Shown here one piece after another: positions 2,416 through 44,465 of a stretch of 46,088 nucleotides of DNA (position 1 is the stretch's first letter; each line of letters starts with the position of its first letter). Source of the DNA: Thermincola carboxydiphila (GTDB lineage: Bacteria > Bacillota > Thermincolia > Thermincolales > UBA2595). The position numbers were made by a program, and so were the translations under genes. The DNA is taken from positions 1 through 46,088 of the forward strand of contig JAENZX010000029.1 of NCBI GenBank assembly GCA_016841045.1, written 5' to 3'. The notes under the pieces are model-generated. The model saw only the letters and a list, made by a program, of their open reading frames with translations, made no database searches and was not told the origin of the DNA.

Positions 2416-3351
2416 TTATATGGCACTGAATCTTCCTTCATAATATTTCAACTTGCCTATATCTTTATTTTGTTCGTAATATTCCATCAAGCTTTTCAAC
2501 AGCTCTGCAAATGTAATCTCGTATTGCTGCTGGAATCCCCCGGACCATGAATAATATCCGTCTTCAAGCAGGATTCCCCGGTACAGCACAGCCGCCTTTT
2601 CCATCGACGAAATTCTGTTTGGATTATTCAAATCCGAACCGGCTTCAACAAGTCTGTCGAAACTGACCAAATCGCACTCAATTTCCTCCAGCTTAATGCG
2701 CATTTTCCCGCGCTCGGATTCAATGGGAATTTCTACTCCCATTTTGTTTTCCTGCTTTTTTATGTAGTAGTACGCTAAATAAAGGTTCGATATGCCTTTT
2801 TCGCCGTCCATATCAGGCCAGAGGGCTTCTGCTATTTTCCCCTTCGAAACAAACCTGCCCTTCTCACATAAGAGATATGCAATAAGTTCTTCAGCTTTTC
2901 TGGTTCTCCAGCCGGTGTTAATCTCTTGGCCATCGGCCATAATCGAAAAATCCCGAAAGCAGTTGATCTCTATTTTCTGCTTGTTATCTCGCGCCATCTG
3001 CGGCTTGATGCGTTCAAGGGTCTTCAATAGTCTGGGGCGCGTCACCGGTTTAACAAGATAATCCACCGCATTTATTTCAAAAGCCTTTACAGCATAGTGG
3101 CTGTAGGCGGTTACAAATACAATATTCGGATTTACCCCTGCCTCCAGCAGCTTTTCCAAGAGCTCAAAACCATTCATTTTCGGCATTTCTATATCAATAA
3201 AAATAATATCTGGGTTAATTTTGCTGATTTCCTCCAGCATTTTTTGGCCATCCTCGTACATCCCGGCCACTTCTATGCCCCCGATGTCCTCCAGTTCCAT
3301 TCGCAGCCCTTCCAGCGCATAGTATTCATCATCAACTACAATAGCTTTCAT
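2416..3351 (-). CDS. Response regulator with receiver and SARP/BTAD-type output domain
   Basis: Residues 1-120 form a receiver domain: acidic pocket VVDDE near the start, phospho-acceptor Asp in IIFIDIEMP (near residue 54), conserved Thr in VFVTAYS and Lys in DYLVKPV. Residues 130-225 resemble a winged-helix domain of the OmpR/SARP type (RTRKAEELIAYLLCEKGRFV, then IAEALWPD). The rest is a helical transcriptional-activator (BTAD-like) domain. It should bind DNA after phosphorylation by the kinase encoded just upstream. The ATG at 3351 is chosen because AAGGA lies eight bases upstream. It overlaps the kinase gene by 20 bases, so the pair is translationally coupled. Target genes cannot be read from the sequence. 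Confidence 0.9.
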   Translation of the reverse strand: MKAIVVDDEYYALEGLRMELEDIGGIEVAGMYEDGQKMLEEISKINPDIIFIDIEMPKMNGFELLEKLLEAGVNPNIVFVTAYSHYAVKAFEINAVDYLVKPVTRPRLLKTLERIKPQMARDNKQKIEINCFRDFSIMADGQEINTGWRTRKAEELIAYLLCEKGRFVSKGKIAEALWPDMDGEKGISNLYLAYYYIKKQENKMGVEIPIESERGKMRIKLEEIECDLVSFDRLVEAGSDLNNPNRISSMEKAAVLYRGILLEDGYYSWSGGFQQQYEITFAELLKSLMEYYEQNKDIGKLKYYEGRFSAI

Positions 3352-5242
3352 CACTATTTTCCTTTCTCTTTGGAAAAATTACGGTTATCTTCGTTCCTTC
3401 TCCCGGCCTGCTTTCGATAGAAAGCCGGGTGCCATAAAGAGTCTGAAGCCTCCTTTGTATGTTCGCCAGTCCGACCCCGCTCCCCGCAGCCGGATTTCCA
3501 GACACGACTTTTTTTATCTGATTCTCTGTCATTCCTGCGCCATCATCTTCAACTTCTATTATAAAACAATCCGCCAGGTTCTTAACCCTTAAAGCTACCA
3601 TGCCACCGCCATCACTTTTTCGGATACCATGGCGTATGGCATTTTCAACGAGCGGCTGCAGAATAAGTGGCGGAAGTCGCAATTCCTCCGTATCATCAAG
3701 CTCATATTTTACTTCCAGCTTATCCCTGAACCGAGCTTGTTCGATTCTAACATATGCCTGAATGTATTCCAGTTCTTCATCAAAGGTTATGTATTTGGCA
3801 AGATTTTTGAAATCAAAGGTGTGCCGCAGGTAGCTGGATAAATCCAGGATAAGTTCCCTTGCCCTGCATGCATCAATTCTGCACAGGGCCACAATAATAT
3901 TCAGAGAATTATACAGGAAGTGGGGTTTAATCTGGGCCTGTAGGAATGCTGATTCGTTGGCTATGGAGACCTCTTCCGCACTTTTATAAAGCATCAGAGC
4001 ATTTTCCTTTTCATTTCTTAACACCTTTACACGATCGGCCAGGGCCGCCGAAAGAAGAACGGCTTCCAAAACTGCCGATATCATGACAATTAACAGGCTC
4101 AGGTCATTGTTCGGTACCATTCCCCATACTCTGGCTAAGAAAATCATCAAACCTAAAAGCATCGTACCCCAGCCCGCAAGGAAGTATTTAGCCTGCTTAA
4201 CGCCTCTGCCAACGGCCAACACAGTTGTATATACAATCAAAAGCCCTGCACCCGATGCCAGTACAGTGGAAAAAATACTGGTCTCATACCTTAAGCCCGA
4301 CAGCATCATGACTATCCCAATTATACAAAGTATGATAAAAGTCCTGGAATATTTGTCTTGTGTCGGAAAGCTTTCGGGTGTATCCAAAAAAGACCTGAAA
4401 AACATTAAGGCAGCTGCCACCATAAAGAGTCCAAGGGTAACAACATTGGCAATCAAAGCTTCAGCATACCCGCCCATAAAAATCCTGTATACTCCGAGCA
4501 GCGATGCCTGATAAACCAGCATGGAAAGTATATAGATTACGTAATACAGATATGCCTTGTCTTTTAAAAAAAGGAAGTTATTAAAATTATTGATACCCAT
4601 TGCCAAGAGCAGGCCGAAAAAGATTCCCAGAACAAGTATGTTCCTCAGCTTACTTATGTTAAATTCCCTATCTGTAAGTATTTTAATGTTATAGTTTTGT
4701 GTAAAAGGAGAACTTAACTGAAGATAGACATATTTTCCTTCCGCCATATTTTCAGCAAGCCTGAATACTGGATACGTTAAGCCTTCATCCTGAGTATTGC
4801 CGTGGAATCCCCAGCCCGAACGAAGGGTTCTATATTGAATTCCTGCATCGGTAATAACGGGAAGATATAAAACAGCCTTTTCAACAGTGGGATTATTTAT
4901 GACAAGATACATATGATTATCATCAATAGGTAATCTATCAAGCTTCATTCTTACCCACCAGGTTGAGCGGCTTTGTCCAATAGACAGGGTAGAACCGGTA
5001 TGCTGCAAAAAGCTTCCGGCAATTTCTTTTATCTGCACTTTATCCAGGCTCATGGTTCCAGAAGCATCTTCCAGATATTCAATTGAAGGAACTGGAATAG
5101 GCCCTTTAGGATTTTTTTCATAAGCAGGACTTGAACCAGCTATTCTAGCAATCATTACAAAAAGCAACAGGATAAAAGAAACAATCAACAACCTGTTTTT
5201 AATTATTTGAAACAAATGTAAAATACCCTTCATAATGCACAT
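3332..5242 (-). CDS. LytS-like membrane sensor histidine kinase with 7TMR-DISM sensor
   Basis: This is a kinase of about 636 residues. An N-terminal membrane segment is followed by an extracellular 7TMR-DISM-type sensory domain (about residues 50-185, probably ligand or carbohydrate binding) and about seven transmembrane helices (about 195-400). The cytoplasmic part has the His_kinase box QIKPHFLYNSLN, with the phospho-acceptor His, and an ATPase domain with N box (LVENAIRHGI), EVEDDGAGM and GVGLANIQRRL. It would phosphorylate the adjacent response regulator. Several starts are possible. The ATG at 5242 has AGGG four bases upstream, and a further in-frame ATG lies at 5233. The signal is unknown. 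A nearby lectin/SLH remnant hints at a surface or carbohydrate theme, but only weakly. Confidence 0.9.
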   Translation of the reverse strand: MCIMKGILHLFQIIKNRLLIVSFILLLFVMIARIAGSSPAYEKNPKGPIPVPSIEYLEDASGTMSLDKVQIKEIAGSFLQHTGSTLSIGQSRSTWWVRMKLDRLPIDDNHMYLVINNPTVEKAVLYLPVITDAGIQYRTLRSGWGFHGNTQDEGLTYPVFRLAENMAEGKYVYLQLSSPFTQNYNIKILTDREFNISKLRNILVLGIFFGLLLAMGINNFNNFLFLKDKAYLYYVIYILSMLVYQASLLGVYRIFMGGYAEALIANVVTLGLFMVAAALMFFRSFLDTPESFPTQDKYSRTFIILCIIGIVMMLSGLRYETSIFSTVLASGAGLLIVYTTVLAVGRGVKQAKYFLAGWGTMLLGLMIFLARVWGMVPNNDLSLLIVMISAVLEAVLLSAALADRVKVLRNEKENALMLYKSAEEVSIANESAFLQAQIKPHFLYNSLNIIVALCRIDACRARELILDLSSYLRHTFDFKNLAKYITFDEELEYIQAYVRIEQARFRDKLEVKYELDDTEELRLPPLILQPLVENAIRHGIRKSDGGGMVALRVKNLADCFIIEVEDDGAGMTENQIKKVVSGNPAAGSGVGLANIQRRLQTLYGTRLSIESRPGEGTKITVIFPKRKENSDESYCS

Positions 5243-5395: not shown

Positions 5396-5450
5396 CCAAA
5401 TGAAAACCAGCCCTGTAATCGTGTAGATTACAGGGCTGGTTTTCATTTGG
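5396..5450 (-). terminator. Perfect 25-bp inverted repeat, terminator of the lost tRNA-Ala gene
   Basis: Bases 5396-5420 and 5426-5450 are perfectly complementary around a five-base loop (GTGTA). On the minus strand the hairpin starts at the encoded CCA of the tRNA-Ala fragment, as expected for a tRNA transcript terminator. It is unusually long and perfect and could act in both directions. Confidence 0.75.
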
Positions 5451-5486
5451 TGGAGATAAGCGGGATCGAACCGCTGACCTCTTGAA
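5448..5486 (-). pseudogene. 3' fragment of tRNA-Ala (direct repeat of 1510-1547)
   Basis: The minus strand carries the 3' end of a tRNA-Ala: part of the anticodon stem, T arm GGTTCGATCC, acceptor strand TATCTCC, discriminator A and encoded CCA. The gene is cut at 5486, inside the anticodon stem, and joins a decayed IS256 transposase gene. It shares a perfect 38-bp repeat with 1510-1547 in the same orientation. tRNA 3' ends are classic attachment sites of integrases, but no integrase gene lies between the copies. Confidence 0.75.
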
Positions 5487-5965: not shown

Positions 5966-6118
5966 TCAAACACCTTGAACTAATTCCTCGAAAGGCAGTT
6001 CAAATTTTACGCTTATGTCAAGGGAAACTACACCCGATTTTCTTGAATGCCATTCCAAAGCACCCTCTCCCGATACGTGAAATTTACCCACTCTTAAAGA
6101 TTCTAATAGATGATTCAC
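5966..6118 (-). CDS. Possible small protein coupled to the serine recombinase
   Basis: A 50-codon GTG-initiated frame overlaps the recombinase stop codon (GTGA arrangement at 6115-6118). The product contains LLESLRVGKFHVSGEGALEW and ends in SVKFELPFEELVQGV. I do not recognise it. The overlap favours translational coupling, but the frame may instead be element-end DNA that is open by chance. No ribosome binding site is obvious. Confidence 0.3.
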   Translation of the reverse strand: MNHLLESLRVGKFHVSGEGALEWHSRKSGVVSLDISVKFELPFEELVQGV

Positions 6119-7680
6119 ATTGTAAGGTTAAACTGCTCAACATCGGCGTTAAATTCAATGGTGATATCATAATCCTTTTTAACCGATACTTTACTGATAA
6201 GGTAACTGGCTATCATTTTCTTTGCTTCAGGGCTGCTGTTATCAAACATTTCAGCCCATGAAAGAAGCGTGGAATATTTCTCTTTTGCCTCACTCTGCAG
6301 CTTTTTGCTAAAGTCAAGCTCAGTCTGCAACCTTTCTATTTCACTTTTGGCAGTTTTAACACTTTCGGTCTTTTGGGTTATCAGCTTATTTAGAAGCTCC
6401 TGTGGAAATGCACTTGTTCCACTTAAAGCTTTTACCACTTCCGCTTCCAGCGTTGCCAGTTCTTTTGAATCTTGTTCGTAAATCTTTTTTGCATGTGCCA
6501 AGCTTGCTTTGCAATCATTTAACTTGTGATTGTAATAAGTTTCAAAGATTGAGTCTTGGGGTGAATCTTTTAATTTATCGAACAGCTTATGAATAGCTTC
6601 TGTAACGATGCCATCGATGAAATGGGATGTATAGCTTGTCGGGCCATCACAATAATGTCTTTTCCGAGTCTTGTTATAACATACATAAGTGTGGCGCTTT
6701 TTACCTTTTACTGTTCCGTTAGCAATAGTTACTTTTTTGCCGGATGTCGTTGGAGTTAATCTGCCGCCACAATGTCCGCAATAAATATTTCCTGATAACA
6801 GTGATCTACCTTTCGTACACATCGGAAGCGTTCGCTCAACACCGTGTTTCTTGCTCCGCTGTGCAATAAGCTCTTGAGCACGATCAAAAGTTTCTTGATC
6901 CACAATTATTAAATGAGGAAAGACTTCCGACATAGACTCGCCACTTCGCAGGATTCCAAGGTAAGCTACATTTTTTAACATATTAAGAATTGTGGCCGGA
7001 TGCCATGAGTCTCCAGAACGGCTTTTAATACCTTGATTTGTTAAGTACATAGCAATTCGGTGCGTGCCCATACCTTCATACGCATATTTCTGAAAGATTG
7101 TACGTACAACAGAAGACTCATACTCATCCACCACAACTTCATTAACTTCATAATTTTTCTTGTTGAGACGTCCCTGTTTTTCAAGGCGGAACCCATAAGC
7201 ACAAAAGCCACCGCGGAAACGGCCTTCTTGCACAATTTGACCGAGGCGTGTTTTAGTGCGGATAGAGGTTTTTTCGCTTTCGCCCGATGCTTGCCAAAAA
7301 CGGATATAATTCATCAGCTTATCAACATGATTATCAAAGCGTTGCTGACCCTCTTGGGTGCTCCAGACCTCGATACCGTTTTTGACGAACCATTCCACAA
7401 CAAAGGGGGTTTCATCATCACGGCGGCCTAAACGGTCAAACATAAACACTAACAGGATATCGAACCGGCCTGCTAAAGCATCCTTTTTAATTTCCTGTAT
7501 GGCATCACGGTCTTTTGTTGCGACCTTAAATCCGGATATGCCTTTCTCAGAATACTCTTTTACAATCTCCCATCCTTGTGCGTTGGCAAACTCCCGGCAG
7601 GCTTGTTTCTGCATGGGAATATCGTCTTTTTCAACCTGTCCGAGAGTGGAGACTCTATATAAACAACAAACCCTTCTCAT
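6115..7680 (-). CDS. Large serine recombinase (TnpX/TndX type)
   Basis: This 521-residue site-specific recombinase is of normal length for integrases of Tn4451/Tn5397-type elements. The N-terminal resolvase domain has the nucleophile Ser in CCLYRVSTLGQ (near residue 11) and the conserved FDRLGRR motif (near residue 82). A Recombinase domain follows (about 165-290, including GTHRIAMYLTNQGI). A zinc-ribbon has CGHCGG and a later Cys pair (YVCYNKTRKRHYC). The C-terminal coiled coil spans about residues 390-470. It would excise and integrate the surrounding element through short attachment sites. The ATG at 7680 has AGAGAGGAC upstream. It lies downstream of TnpW and the sigma-like gene on the same strand. 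Confidence 0.93.
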   Translation of the reverse strand: MRRVCCLYRVSTLGQVEKDDIPMQKQACREFANAQGWEIVKEYSEKGISGFKVATKDRDAIQEIKKDALAGRFDILLVFMFDRLGRRDDETPFVVEWFVKNGIEVWSTQEGQQRFDNHVDKLMNYIRFWQASGESEKTSIRTKTRLGQIVQEGRFRGGFCAYGFRLEKQGRLNKKNYEVNEVVVDEYESSVVRTIFQKYAYEGMGTHRIAMYLTNQGIKSRSGDSWHPATILNMLKNVAYLGILRSGESMSEVFPHLIIVDQETFDRAQELIAQRSKKHGVERTLPMCTKGRSLLSGNIYCGHCGGRLTPTTSGKKVTIANGTVKGKKRHTYVCYNKTRKRHYCDGPTSYTSHFIDGIVTEAIHKLFDKLKDSPQDSIFETYYNHKLNDCKASLAHAKKIYEQDSKELATLEAEVVKALSGTSAFPQELLNKLITQKTESVKTAKSEIERLQTELDFSKKLQSEAKEKYSTLLSWAEMFDNSSPEAKKMIASYLISKVSVKKDYDITIEFNADVEQFNLTM

Positions 7681-7993: not shown

Positions 7994-8118
7994 ATATGGT
8001 TACCTCACCTTCAATCAATCTTGCTTACAAATGCATTTAGCTTGCAAAGTCCGAAATTATTTCATTTTAGACTATGGTTTTAACAGTTCCATTCTGCACC
8101 TCCTTGATAAATTCACGT

Positions 8119-8199
8119 TTAATACCAGAAGGATACAGCGGAGCTATTTGGCTCCGCCGCATATTTTCTAATATCAAAGCGGTTACGCTTGTTCTTCAT
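8119..8199 (-). CDS. Possible 26-residue leader-type peptide
   Basis: The short frame starts ATGAAGAACAAGCG and encodes MKNKRNRFDIRKYAAEP and so on, ending SAVSFWY. Inside it a perfect 7-bp hairpin (GCGGAGC/GCTCCGC, 8138-8157) is followed at once by AAGGAGGTGCAG and an ATG whose frame stops after six codons. A small ORF with a hairpin and then a strong ribosome binding site recalls an attenuation leader. The gene it might have controlled is not evident before TnpW. Confidence 0.35.
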   Translation of the reverse strand: MKNKRNRFDIRKYAAEPNSSAVSFWY

Positions 8200-8219
8200 T
8201 TTTCGTCTATACTATATTT

Positions 8220-8540
8220 GGATGCTACCTCCCAAGCATCCACCCAAGCAACAGCTCAAACTACCTGTGGTCAGCAGGTATCACAGGAATTTCACCTCCC
8301 CGAGAACCTCCGGGCCGCACTTTGGGACTTAACCTCAACTATGCGGGAGTATCATGATAGGCTGTTCAGGTCTTGGCAAAACAATCCACCACAGATTGTT
8401 TTATGGTCAAACATTCTCGCTCGTCACCTTCGATGCTATCGGGTTGACGGACAAAAAAGTCCGCAGGCGGTCATGGCGTGTTTACCAATGTCGCTTTCCG
8501 TTTTGGCGGCTGAACAGCTAACGTATCTGAGCTGTTGGAT
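8220..8540 (-). ncRNA. Candidate structured RNA between sigma-like gene and TnpW
   Basis: About 640 bases between the genes at 8633 and 7993 have no convincing protein gene, but they carry a dense series of short perfect or near-perfect hairpins. These are at 8513-8536 (AACAGCT/AGCTGTT), 8448-8463 (CGGAC/GTCCG), 8380-8400 (AACAATC/GATTGTT), 8299-8314 (CCCGAG/CTCCGGG, one bulge), 8264-8287 (CCTGTG/CACAGG) and 8220-8241 (GGATGC/GCATCC). Same-strand neighbours and high GC compared with the AT-rich surroundings suggest a conserved transcribed RNA. The minus strand is assumed from gene direction. I cannot assign it to a known RNA family. Confidence 0.45.
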
Positions 8541-8583
8541 ATGGACGGCTGACACCGACTTTTTTCAAAGAGCAATGAGGGAC

Positions 8584-8622
8584 AAAAAAACCCCTCACTT
8601 CTTTAAGGAAAAAGGTGAGGGG
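8584..8622 (-). terminator. Terminator after the sigma-like gene
   Basis: Minus-strand stem CCCCTCAC/GTGAGGGG (8622-8615 with 8598-8591) is followed by seven T residues. It sits ten bases past the stop of the sigma-like gene. Confidence 0.85.
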
Positions 8623-8632
8623 GTGAGCGGAT

Positions 8633-9055
8633 TTATTTGTATTTTTTCAGGAATTTTTTTAGTTTCAATAGAATTTTCCGTTTCCTATCATTAATTGTCC
8701 TTTGGGGTATTCCCGTTTCTAATGATAATTGTCGCTCACTCTTACCATTGAAAAATAGTTCATTGATAAGCATTCGCTCATTCTTATCTAGAAAATTTAG
8801 GCATTCCAGCATTTTTTCAATCATTTCCGCCTTGATGAGCTTGTCCTCTATGGATTCTTGCGAGCAGGCAATTACATATTCTACCTGAATGCCTTTTTGA
8901 ATGCAGGCTTCAAGGGATATATTTTTTGCTTTTGCCAATCCGTCAAGATATTTTTCCCGCTCTTTATGTTTGTAGTAAGCCCTATAGACTTCCTTGCTCA
9001 CGACAATTCGCTTCTTTTTAACTATCAATACGTATATGCTCTCCTGATCTTCCAT
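8633..9055 (-). CDS. Sigma-70-like transcription factor of the transposon module
   Basis: The product is about 140 residues. The C-terminal part is a sigma region 4-like helix-turn-helix (FNGKSERQLSLETGIPQRTI, then DRKRKILLKLKKF). The N-terminal part (VSKEVYRAYYKHKEREKYL) matches the small sigma-like proteins of clostridial conjugative and mobilizable elements. The ATG at 9055 is preferred because GGAGG lies nine bases before it. An upstream extension to 9121 has no ribosome binding site. It probably directs transcription within the element. A strong terminator follows. Confidence 0.8.
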   Translation of the reverse strand: MEDQESIYVLIVKKKRIVVSKEVYRAYYKHKEREKYLDGLAKAKNISLEACIQKGIQVEYVIACSQESIEDKLIKAEMIEKMLECLNFLDKNERMLINELFFNGKSERQLSLETGIPQRTINDRKRKILLKLKKFLKKYK

Positions 9056-9140
9056 AGGCTTGTCCTCCATTTCGAGATTTTTTAATCCAGAAAATGAAGA
9101 ACAAGCGGAGGGGAGCGGCACCCTGCAGAACGCCTATGTA

Positions 9141-9467: not shown

Positions 9468-10028
9468 TTAAATTGTAAGCTGCATATGTTGCACAACTAT
9501 CTCTACCTGCCCTATTTTATTGACTTGCTGCATGCTCAGCTTGTCCAAGTTATTTTTGGGTGACTTGCATGGGATCAACTTTTCATTGCCTTTCAGACTT
9601 CTGATTGTATGATGAAGACCCGTCACAAGCCAAACAACAAATCCGTACTTCTTCCTGGTCATACTTGTAAGTGCAGGTGTATGATTCCCATACTTTCACC
9701 CCCTTGTAGACAGTGAGCACTACTCAATAGAGAAAAAGAAGGTATGGAGCAAATTAGAACCCCTACCCAAAAAAATTAATAAATTTTCTTGTTTTCTTGG
9801 CATAAAGATATTGTTCAAATTTGTCTTTGCCACATGTAGTTTCCGGTTTCTACCGGTACCTGAGCTAATAATCCAGGTAATTAAATCAGAGTAAGCTTCA
9901 GGACAGCCCAGCCAGCGGCTGCACTTTTTGTTCAAAGGAATAAGGCGATTTATTAATTCCAAGGGGACTTCTTCCTGAGCATTCTGAGTTTTAATAACTA
10001 AATTCAGAAGTTTCGGCTTCCCCTGCAT
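9468..10028 (-). pseudogene. Decayed sigma-like regulator behind a c-di-GMP riboswitch
   Basis: The first part (10028-9720) contains EVPLELINRLIPLNKKCSRW and CPEAYSDLITWIISSG, a pattern seen at the N-terminus of small clostridial sigma-like (YvrI-type) proteins. It runs into stops. The same frame reopens at 9662-9468 (KKYGFVVWLVTGLHHTIRSL and so on), with a third short frame opposite a strong GGGGGTGAAAGT site at about 9700. No intact region 4 is found. The first ATG lies 80 bases downstream of a riboswitch terminator, so the intact ancestor was probably under c-di-GMP control. Confidence 0.45.
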
Positions 10029-10145: not shown

Positions 10146-10240
10146 GAAATCTACGCGGCGGTCAGGCTGTCAGCGATACGCACCTTAGACTCTATGGCTT
10201 TGCGTCCCAGTCTTTTGACAGGTTTGCCCTTAGCACTGAT
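10146..10240 (-). promoter_or_regulatory. Cyclic di-GMP-I riboswitch (GEMM-I)
   Basis: The minus strand reads AGGGCAAACCTGTC-AAAA-GACTGGGACGCAAAGCC, the conserved core of GEMM-I aptamers: GGCAAACC, a hairpin with an AAAA loop, then GGGACGCAAAGCC. It continues with TCTAAGG and a second helix (GGTGCGTATCGCTGACAGCC). A terminator follows within about ten bases, so ligand binding most likely switches transcription. The downstream gene (from 10028) is decayed, so this is probably an orphan. Aptamer limits are approximate. Confidence 0.85.
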
Positions 10241-41702: not shown

Positions 41703-44465
41703 ATAGCGATAGGTAATCCTTTGATGTCATCGCCGGATTTTCCCCCGCTTCACACCGTGCATGAGAGTTTCCCCTCACACGGCGTTCCATCGGGAATTTC
41801 TTCTGGTATGATAAAGCAGTTATCAACGATTGCAAGCTTCCGAAGCTGATTGAGCTTTTTAATTTGCGGTTTTGTTAAGCTGAAATGCGAGAATAATTCA
41901 AATACCGTTGTAGGATTGTTTGCATGAATAAGCTGGTGCATCCGTTCAGAAACAATGATTAAGTTCGCATATTCATCTGTACCGCCACAGTGTTTTGGTG
42001 CTATATGATGACAGTGAACCTCATCTCTGTCCAGAATCTGTTTGCTGACCGCACACTTTCCATGCTGTGCACAGTACAGGGAAAGGCGATTATCATTGAA
42101 CTCCACCGTTTTATGACGGACAGGGTTTCTCATCAGGTAGTGCAGGATGTTTTTATCTATCCGCTCCAGCCCTTTATGAATGGCAGCCCTGCCTTTCGGA
42201 GTGTATTTATTGACGATTCTCGCTTTCATACGGGGATATTTATGCGACACATAACCGATTGGCACCAGCACTTTTGTATCATTTGTGCCGATAAACCGGA
42301 GTTGTGCACTTTTTCCGTATGCTTCCTGTATGTGCTTTGGTATGGTATATTGAATTTTCCTGCTATCCAGCCATGTCTTTGTTTTCAGCCGTTCACGGAG
42401 TCTTGCTTTCAGGCTCTTGTAGATGGGAAAGGCAATTTCCCTAAAATCCTTCTGAACATGGGTAGCCATGTTGTAGTAGTTATGCACTCCGATAACAAAT
42501 GAGTTATACATGGATACGGCGGTATATTGACCGTCTTTTCCGTCTGTGTGGAACTCAATATCATGTATGAGTGCGCGCGCTTTTTGGACAATCTTTTTCT
42601 TTGATTTGTCAGTGATGTGGCTTTTGACAATGTATTTTGGCTCTCCGCTTGCTTTTGCGCCTCTGCGAATCAGCTTCATCTTAAAGCCCAAGAATTCGGA
42701 ATATCCCTTTTTCAGATTAACGATTTGCGATTTATCCCGATTGATTTCAAGCCCCAGACGGTGCTTGAGCCAATCCTGAACAGCATGGAACACCTTTTCC
42801 GCGTCGCCACGCTTTCTGCAAAATATGCGAAAATCATCGGCATAACGCACAATGTAGCATTCCTTCAGGTTGGTCAGATTTCTAAGCGAGCCATATCGAC
42901 TGCTGTGAATCGGAGCACCGTTCGCACTAATTCCGGTGGAATATTGCCGTTTTGTAGGCATGTTTTCCCATTGGCTTGCTATCCACCAATCCAGTTCATT
43001 CAGCACGATATTTGAAAGAAGCGGGGAAATGACGCCGCCTTGAGGTGTTCCTTTTTCTGGAAATCCTATTCCGGCTACTTCTGCTTTCAGCATTGCGGAT
43101 ATGATTGAGAGCAGGGTTTTATCCCGTATTCCCATTGTCCACATTTGCTTGAGCAGTTTCCCATGACTGACGTTTTCAAAAAATCCTTTGATGTCTATGT
43201 CAACCACAAAAGAAAGTCCGCTTAACTGCATCATTTTAACCGCCTGTGCTATGGCGTGTTCGGTGCTTCGGTTTGGGCGAAAGCCGTGACTGTTATCATG
43301 AAATTTGGCTTCGCATATTGGTTCCAGCACCTGCAACACGCATTGCTGTATCAGCCTGTCCATGATGGTTGGTATACCGAGCGGGCGCATTTTTGTCGGG
43401 TCATTTGGTTTCGGTATTTCTACCCTGCGCACCGGCTGGGGTTCGTACCAACTCAATTTTCGCTGGACAAGGTAAACCAGCCGTTCATCACTTAACTTGG
43501 ATAGATTTTCGATTGTCCGGTTGTCTGTGCCTGCTGTCCTACTTCCTTTGTTTTTCCTGATATTGCGGTATGCCAGCTTGATATTTTCCTCCGCTGTTAT
43601 CAGCGGCATAAGGTCTTTGAAAATGCGACCGTTTTTGCTGTCGGCATACAGCTTATCAAAGATTTCCTGAAGGCCGTAGTATTCAGCATGGCGTAATTTT
43701 GCCTTTTTCCTTTGCTTGCCTGTCGCTGTCATAGTCGGCTCACCTCGCTTTTAATGGCGGGTCTGCCTTTCTTAGTCTTACTCGAACCTATGATATTGTC
43801 TGCTTTTACCTTACTGTTTTTCAGAATCATTCTCGACTTGTGGCTATCCCTCCGCCGTGTTTCCACGGTTTCATAGGTACTATGCCACTGCTCTCAGCCA
43901 GATTAAATCAGGTTATACGGTGACCGCTTTCCCTGATACCGCTTCCTTACGCTGCAATGCGCTCCACGTCCTGACCTTTCTACGTTCCGATATTCCTATC
44001 CAATTTCCAATACCCTTAGGTTTTCCTTTGAGCCTGTACGCTGGACGGCACCTGTAATGCCGTAAGGACTTTCATGGGCACTATTTTACTTATCCTCACG
44101 CACACCGCATGACACGGTTACAACCTTTCGATTGTATCGATTTTTAGACCCTTTCATTCGGAAATTCGTCAGCGGGCTAACTACCCGCATTCTCACCATA
44201 GGTATTGATAGACCTCCGGCATATAGACCGCACCATGTACCTCTACACAGCTTTCCACAGCTTGACCTGTTTGGGCGGTTCTCTGCCGACTTCAACGGGC
44301 TTTACACATCAAATCTATTGCACGACTGATGCATACCGTAGTATCAAGGGGGCGTTTCAGGGCGTTACCCCATCATTCCACCCATCGGAATATCAGTTCT
44401 ACAAGAACTGTGTTTATTAAAACACGACCTTGCGCCTAACCTTTTCAGTTAGAAACGTATCGCAC
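41703..44465 (-). mobile_element. Group II intron (2.76 kb) near the 3' end of a transfer gene
   Basis: The 5' end is GTGCGATACG at 44465, matching the GUGYG consensus. The 3' end is CTAT at 41703, after a domain VI-like stem (ACCTATCGCTAT). Domain V is visible at 41754-41783 (GCCGTGTGAGGGGAAACTCT and CATGCACGGT) and overlaps the last codons of the maturase. About 730 bases upstream of the maturase hold domains I to III. Excision restores a sensible C-terminus in the host gene. The class is not determined. The last exon bases GGCAC can pair with GTGCC at about 44050, a possible EBS1. Confidence 0.85.
41750..43732 (-). CDS. ltrA: Group II intron reverse transcriptase/maturase with HNH endonuclease
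   Basis: This 660-residue multifunctional protein helps the intron splice and move. The reverse-transcriptase domain (about residues 60-350) has RPLGIPTIMDRLIQQCVLQV, GFRPNRSTEHAI, FVVDIDIKGFFENVSHG, GTPQGGVISPLLSNIVLNEL and catalytic VRYADDFRIFC. A maturase (X) domain follows (about 380-470). The C-terminal HNH nuclease is complete (CAQHGKCAVSKQILDRDEVH, then CHHIAPKHCGGTDEYANL and ERMHQLIHA). No motif is missing. Its last codons lie within intron domain V. Confidence 0.95.
   Translation of the reverse strand: MTATGKQRKKAKLRHAEYYGLQEIFDKLYADSKNGRIFKDLMPLITAEENIKLAYRNIRKNKGSRTAGTDNRTIENLSKLSDERLVYLVQRKLSWYEPQPVRRVEIPKPNDPTKMRPLGIPTIMDRLIQQCVLQVLEPICEAKFHDNSHGFRPNRSTEHAIAQAVKMMQLSGLSFVVDIDIKGFFENVSHGKLLKQMWTMGIRDKTLLSIISAMLKAEVAGIGFPEKGTPQGGVISPLLSNIVLNELDWWIASQWENMPTKRQYSTGISANGAPIHSSRYGSLRNLTNLKECYIVRYADDFRIFCRKRGDAEKVFHAVQDWLKHRLGLEINRDKSQIVNLKKGYSEFLGFKMKLIRRGAKASGEPKYIVKSHITDKSKKKIVQKARALIHDIEFHTDGKDGQYTAVSMYNSFVIGVHNYYNMATHVQKDFREIAFPIYKSLKARLRERLKTKTWLDSRKIQYTIPKHIQEAYGKSAQLRFIGTNDTKVLVPIGYVSHKYPRMKARIVNKYTPKGRAAIHKGLERIDKNILHYLMRNPVRHKTVEFNDNRLSLYCAQHGKCAVSKQILDRDEVHCHHIAPKHCGGTDEYANLIIVSERMHQLIHANNPTTVFELFSHFSLTKPQIKKLNQLRKLAIVDNCFIIPEEIPDGTPCEGKLSCTV

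Follow-up and report, generated by a model that had tools for sequence, protein, structure and literature searches.

A boxA-bearing structured RNA upstream of a large serine recombinase gene of Thermincola carboxydiphila, a probable processive antiterminator of the canT type

What occupies the stretch between a sigma-like regulator gene and a large serine recombinase gene of Thermincola carboxydiphila (contig JAENZX010000029.1), where hairpins are dense and a long gene is missing? The window, i.e., the whole stretch of DNA analyzed here, comprises 46,088 nucleotides. A sequence-only reading of it had proposed a conserved but unknown minus-strand RNA with a role in transposition or its control. 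The gap described in that reading was confirmed: 640 bases devoid of minus-strand genes lie between the sigma-like gene, which stops at 8633, and a 60-aa ORF (7993). The name TnpW, given to the latter, would point to a Tn4451-like element; it was not upheld by any Pfam or NCBIfam match (a TnpW model may be missing from these libraries). The gene preceding the gap (c1; 8633–9121, minus strand) encodes a sigma-70 region-4-like regulator (Sigma70_r4, E 8e-4; sigma70-ECF TIGR02937, E 3e-8), with a likely ATG start at ~9055 that gives a protein of 140 aa. The presumed gene downstream of the RNA encodes a large serine recombinase of 521 aa (6115–7680, minus strand; Resolvase, E 6e-23; Recombinase, E 1e-17; zinc ribbon, E 2e-10).

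A genuine structured RNA is encoded in the hairpin-rich region, on the minus strand. The predicted folding energy of minus-strand region 8180–8630 is -148.7 kcal/mol, compared with -127.0 (sd 6.2) for dinucleotide shuffles (z -3.5; 0 of 100 shuffles). An alignment of 20 serine-type homologues (A1), spanning the DNA from upstream of a boxA motif to beyond the last hairpin, yielded a consensus of 80 base pairs, half of which (40) show double-sided changes. The consensus is paired in 97.9% of the alignment cells, versus 90.3% in shuffles and 38–46% in slid controls, and the covariation score reaches 0.351 versus 0.198 ± 0.008 (0 of 500 shuffles). Both G-U pairs and double-sided changes are present in the A1 helices. 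In three further groups of loci, each folded separately, a boxA is likewise followed by an enclosing fold, with 82–96% of cells paired versus 35–45% after sliding; the T155 group is the weakest of these, and many double changes also appear in its slid controls. The conserved RNA, with its strong covariation, and the minus strand, the latter only assumed by the sequence-only reading, are both borne out.

The RNA occupies positions 8249–8574, or extends to 8596 if the 5' hairpin P1 is included, and so runs beyond the limits first drawn for it. It forms a compact fold of ~325 nt, composed of (i) a closing helix, P2, whose 5' strand (8525–8537) pairs with 8249–8261 (13 pairs, 6 with double-sided changes); (ii) a 5' domain, P3–P7 (8362–8517); (iii) a core corresponding to the Rfam family pemK RNA, P8–P10 (8346–8285); and (iv) hairpin P11 (8263–8279; 5 pairs, 4 with double-sided changes). 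Within the 5' domain of alignment A1, P3 joins 8517–8511 with 8368–8362, P4 to P6 lie inside 8494–8376, and hairpin P7 (8381–8399) carries a conserved GG loop. Four of the six hairpins originally pointed out coincide with consensus helices (8264–8287 with P11, 8299–8314 with P9, 8380–8400 with P7 and 8448–8463 with the tip of P6), and 8220–8241 falls just outside the closing helix. The remaining one (8513–8536), paired in 88% of cells, competes for strands that also form the longer-range helices P2 and P3; using strand 8537–8525, it is a possible co-transcriptional alternative to P2.

Two further signals were distinguished on the 5' side of the fold. An intrinsic-terminator-like hairpin (CCCCTCAC..GTGAGGGG followed by T7; 8584–8624, minus strand), read from the sequence, abuts boxA; terminators just before boxA were found 49 times in 80 nonredundant loci, versus 2–7 in shuffles. 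The G arm of this terminator can pair alternatively with CCCTC located just 5' of boxA, which gives hairpin P1 (GAGGG/CCCTC; 8578–8596, minus strand), the first helix of A1, with 95.9% of cells paired by GC, GU and AU types. A transcript starting within the terminator would therefore have no terminator. A -10-like sequence, TTAAAGAA, overlaps the terminator hairpin, and the promoter position of the window RNA is a putative one.

The second signal, boxA itself (TGCTCTTTGAAAA; 8562–8574, minus strand), directly precedes closing helix P2 and matches the rRNA boxA consensus at 13 of 13 positions. The same motif occurs in rRNA operons of related genomes, ~101 nt before the 16S gene or within the 16S-23S spacer (related genomes were used for this comparison; the window's own assembly holds no 16S gene). 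The sequence TTGNTCTTTGAAAA has only two occurrences in the window's genome. A boxA with at least 11 of 13 matches was present within 300 bases 5' of the pemK core in 39 of 51 nonredundant loci, mostly at a distance of 160–257 nt, where shuffles expect 1.1; the opposite strand of the same loci gave none, and the downstream side two. In a second set, comprising 82 loci without deduplication, the contrast was weaker than in the first, with 44 sense versus 10 antisense motifs at the threshold of at least 11 of 13, and 24 versus 0 at that of at least 12 of 13. An excess of sense-strand terminators downstream of the RNA was dropped as evidence of antitermination, the counts (18 sense versus 23 antisense) showing no strand bias.

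The RNA is not without a name. In an Rfam scan, a single family exceeded its threshold in this region, namely pemK RNA (RF02913; 8281–8358, minus strand), matched over its full length (positions 1–61 of 61) with 58.4 bits at a gathering score of 34.8. The matched core, the 3' third of the RNA, contains the AUNAUGAUAC element together with P8, P9 and P10. The Rfam model represents only 61 positions of a 3' part and includes neither the boxA nor the 5' domain, P11 or closing helix of the window RNA. The family name presumably comes from a PemK toxin gene, which is present in some loci only. DNA similarity searches with the window region against plasmids and phages gave no match. The pemK RNA was detected in 25 of 398 Bacillota genomes and in none of 14 control genomes; in the class to which one of the positive Bacillota genomes belongs, 20 of 83 genomes contained it.

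Around these loci, a homologue of c1 usually lies upstream. On the downstream side, the same strand carries a gene for a large serine recombinase (c0) or for a tyrosine integrase (c2), and in some loci a gene for a PemK toxin (c6) or for a Tn916-type excisionase (c12, PF09035) intervenes. The second set of loci was obtained by searching 84,980 species genomes with the 18-base pattern. Among 68 of its loci, the nearest downstream gene with 150 aa or more coded for a serine recombinase (16 loci), a tyrosine integrase (15) or ParA (15), the others being PemK and singletons with one ParB among them (some families in this set were assigned by reading the sequences). In four loci (L141, L144, L171 and L223), parA or parB follows the RNA at a distance of 140–340 nt; there the RNA stands at the apparent start of a long element operon, and hence is not bound to recombinase genes. 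In genomes other than that of the window, the RNA thus stands first in operons of integrative elements that are of the serine-recombinase, xis-int or parA-parB type, and such varied downstream genes argue for a regulator of whole operons and against one dedicated to a particular gene.

The link to a described function came from Tn916. The integrase encoded at one pemK locus (L053) and the integrase of the Tn916-type element of plasmid pCF10 are 100% identical. In the latter element (L229), the pemK RNA (3538–3638) lies between orf8 (stop at 3255) and xis, and a boxA matching 13 of 13 positions is found at +120 to +132 after orf8. This is the location of canT, for which a cis-acting, orientation-specific, processive antiterminator RNA has been shown experimentally (Wirachman and Grossman, 2024; PMC11658703). 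A covariance model of P7 to P11 (R1), trained only on 19 relatives of the window RNA, all of the serine type and none of them Tn916, matched canT at L229 3494–3670 with 58.1 bits (E 9e-14). It also matched parAB-type loci (E 6e-9 or better), and gave no match to conAn2 of pLS20 or to rRNA loci. The suggestion that the RNA was an unknown one does not hold, therefore, as its core belongs to pemK RNA and it is homologous to canT of Tn916.

The published mutants can be placed on this structure. The active canT fragment comprises 452 bp, from +126 to +577 after orf8, and promotes readthrough of Tn916, gatB, rrnB and lambda terminators (PMC11658703). In mutants S3 (ATA to TGC at +283) and D162 (a 162-bp deletion, +229 to +390), readthrough falls below 5% and conjugation decreases ~100-fold (PMC11658703). 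The Tn916 sequence reads ATA at +283, as S3 requires, and by coordinates S3 swaps the first three bases (AUA) of the pemK motif, while D162 (L229 3484–3645) removes the whole motif, which gives an account of the inactivity of both mutants at the level of single bases. The window RNA has AUC rather than AUA at these three positions. A 400-bp canT fragment has been reported to be insensitive to S3 (PMC11658703). The active 452-bp fragment begins inside boxA and lacks its 5' half, so an intact boxA was not needed in that reporter; boxA may thus be dispensable for short-range antitermination, or may serve processivity only. The authors of the canT study found the structure uninterpretable by single-sequence folding and made no mention of boxA or pemK (PMC11658703). 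In the later literature that we searched, no paper connected canT with either, and neither the canT study nor Rfam seems to link canT with pemK.

On this evidence, we assign the window region with high confidence to the cis-acting processive antiterminator RNAs of the canT type, as a new member of that kind. The fold, the canT homology, the boxA and the gene order were computed here for the window copy itself, while antitermination, cis action, orientation dependence and processivity come solely from the Tn916 literature; by analogy, the window copy very probably acts as canT does. In the mechanism we propose, the nascent minus-strand RNA, with its boxA and fold, would stay on the elongating RNA polymerase, which would then ignore intrinsic terminators. 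The polymerase modified in this way would transcribe the recombinase gene and the DNA beyond it, or, in related loci, the xis-int or parA-parB start of a conjugation operon. The presence of boxA suggests recruitment of NusB/S10. The terminator abutting boxA would block unmodified transcripts arriving from the sigma-like gene or the host. In Tn916, expression of the transfer genes is coupled to excision because the circular form is transcribed across its junction (PMC11658703), and by the same logic transcription of the window element might be carried through the recombinase gene and over the joined ends.

The proposed role in transposition or its control can now be divided. For the RNA, which sits in a recombinase-bearing element, a tie to the control of that element is plausible; a direct part in the recombination step itself finds no backing, as excision of the Tn916 canT mutants is normal and not reduced (PMC11658703).

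Three other explanations were weighed against an antiterminator of the canT type. A conventional cis-regulatory leader (a riboswitch or an attenuator) would act on translation or on termination immediately 5' of the recombinase gene, and on nothing further. Its position in a 5' leader, the Rfam label 'Cis-reg', the SD-like GGAGGUG within hairpin P10 and the terminator-like hairpin found 3' of the RNA in some loci would all suit such a leader. We nevertheless consider it improbable: the downstream gene varies between serine recombinase, tyrosine integrase, parA and PemK toxin, which makes a gene-specific ligand unlikely, and the homologue canT is processive and reads through distant and foreign terminators (PMC11658703). 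Even less probable is an element acting as DNA, such as an oriT, a single-strand origin or a recombinase binding region, with hairpins formed in single-stranded DNA. The mobile-element setting and the strong hairpins would be expected of it, but G-U pairs and double-sided changes fit RNA, boxA is a motif that acts in RNA, and the corresponding Tn916 region is unneeded for excision, functions in one orientation only and is separate from oriT, which is located elsewhere (PMC11658703). A protein-coding gene, either the 206-aa plus-strand ORF antisense to the RNA (8074–8694), which has similar ORFs in eight loci (cluster c4), or a mini-ORF 3' of the RNA, is the least probable explanation of all, since the conservation is accounted for by covariation of the helices, the mini-ORF is disrupted in relatives and the equivalent antisense orf5 of Tn916 has been shown to be irrelevant as a protein. 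The mini-ORF (8119–8199; MKNKRNRF...) and the AAGGAGG site do exist, as the sequence-only reading had stated, and its peptide was rejected as a conserved small protein because the frame is interrupted in several relatives.

The surroundings of the antiterminator candidate contain further regulatory sequences. A perfect 17-nt inverted repeat (AAAATGAAGAACAAGCG / CGCTTGTTCTTCATTTT; 8186–8202, minus strand, and 9091–9107, the latter arm before c1) flanks c1 and the RNA. Both arms are conserved in ~20 serine-type loci, ~740 nt upstream and 75–110 nt downstream of the pemK core, and a regulator site and a long-range RNA pairing are candidate readings of them. A c-di-GMP-I riboswitch (10154–10238, minus strand; 47.7 bits) was identified 1.1 kb upstream of c1. 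The same aptamer precedes c1 in 10 of 20 related loci (L007, L016, L027, L073, L078, L079, L080, L084, L086 and L087), followed by a terminator where this was read. It probably provides upstream control of the regulator of the element, and c-di-GMP probably controls such elements. A chain leading from c-di-GMP through the sigma-like regulator and the antiterminator RNA to the recombinase is therefore likely in some of them.

Several other observations concern the window at large. After the riboswitch lies a 102-aa ORF (9720–10028, minus strand), which by eye is like the small sigma/HTH ORFs of conjugative elements and is possibly decayed. Two identical 38-nt sequences (5446–5483 and 1510–1547, both minus strand), the first ~630 nt beyond the recombinase gene, were read as a tRNA 3' end (TTCAAGAGGTCAGCGGTTCGATCCCGCTTATCTCCACCA) and are probable attachment-site remnants; no whole tRNA was detected in the window. 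Group II intron matches (RF00029 and RF02004) are located at 41703–41787 and 44205–44401 (minus strand).

Comparison with known systems places the window RNA closest to canT of Tn916. The two share the pemK core, the AUGAUAC element, a boxA directly upstream, P7 and the closing helix. They also share their location after a sigma-like gene (c1 is equivalent in position to orf7) and before recombination genes on the same strand, as well as a spurious antisense ORF overlapping the RNA. They differ in that the window RNA precedes a large serine recombinase gene, whereas canT precedes xis-int, and in the distance from boxA to the pemK core (216 nt in the window, with its larger 5' domain, versus 163 nt in canT); the terminator hairpin abutting boxA belongs to the window copy. 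No conjugation genes were identified near the window copy. The covariation model provides canT with a structure in which a closing helix is combined with a pemK core and with an alternative hairpin on the 5' side.

Among other antitermination systems, the EAR antiterminator RNA had no Rfam match in the window, either at the gathering threshold or at E-values up to 1. The conAn system of pLS20 (ConAn1 and conAn2 RNA), which acts by processive antitermination (PMC8955417), is alike in that its conjugation operon begins with a small gene followed by an RNA, whose predicted fold is closed by a long helix. It was rejected as a member of the same family, as it has no boxA and no Rfam or R1 match, and its protein ConAn1 is unrelated to c1 (c1 profile versus ConAn1, E 0.15). 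With boxA antitermination of rRNA operons and lambda (NusB/S10), the window shares the boxA motif of the rRNA operons of related genomes; in the window, this motif is followed by a large conserved fold, and a mobile element may recruit the ribosomal antitermination machinery to turn on its own operons.

The Rfam family dinG RNA (RF03082) is the last relative to be considered. Its model matches the window weakly at the same place (21.2 bits, below the gathering score of 46.9), and three of the four dinG RNA loci found are matched by R1 (E ~1e-6), relatedness being visible only when whole loci are compared. These loci have in common with the window a boxA 167–200 nt upstream, AAUGAUACUU and c1-like similarity upstream, and differ in the last hairpin. 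We see about an even chance that pemK RNA, dinG RNA and Tn916 canT form one widespread class of boxA-bearing processive antiterminators, borrowing the host rRNA factors NusB/S10 through boxA, with a large fold replacing the missing phage-type protein, and used alike by serine-recombinase, tyrosine-integrase and parAB/conjugation operons, some under a c-di-GMP riboswitch. This unification, based on boxA and a covariation-supported fold, is the main point of interest: two orphan Rfam families would gain a function, and canT would be extended from a single experimental case to a class spread across many mobile elements of Bacillota, including Tn916-type carriers of tetracycline resistance.
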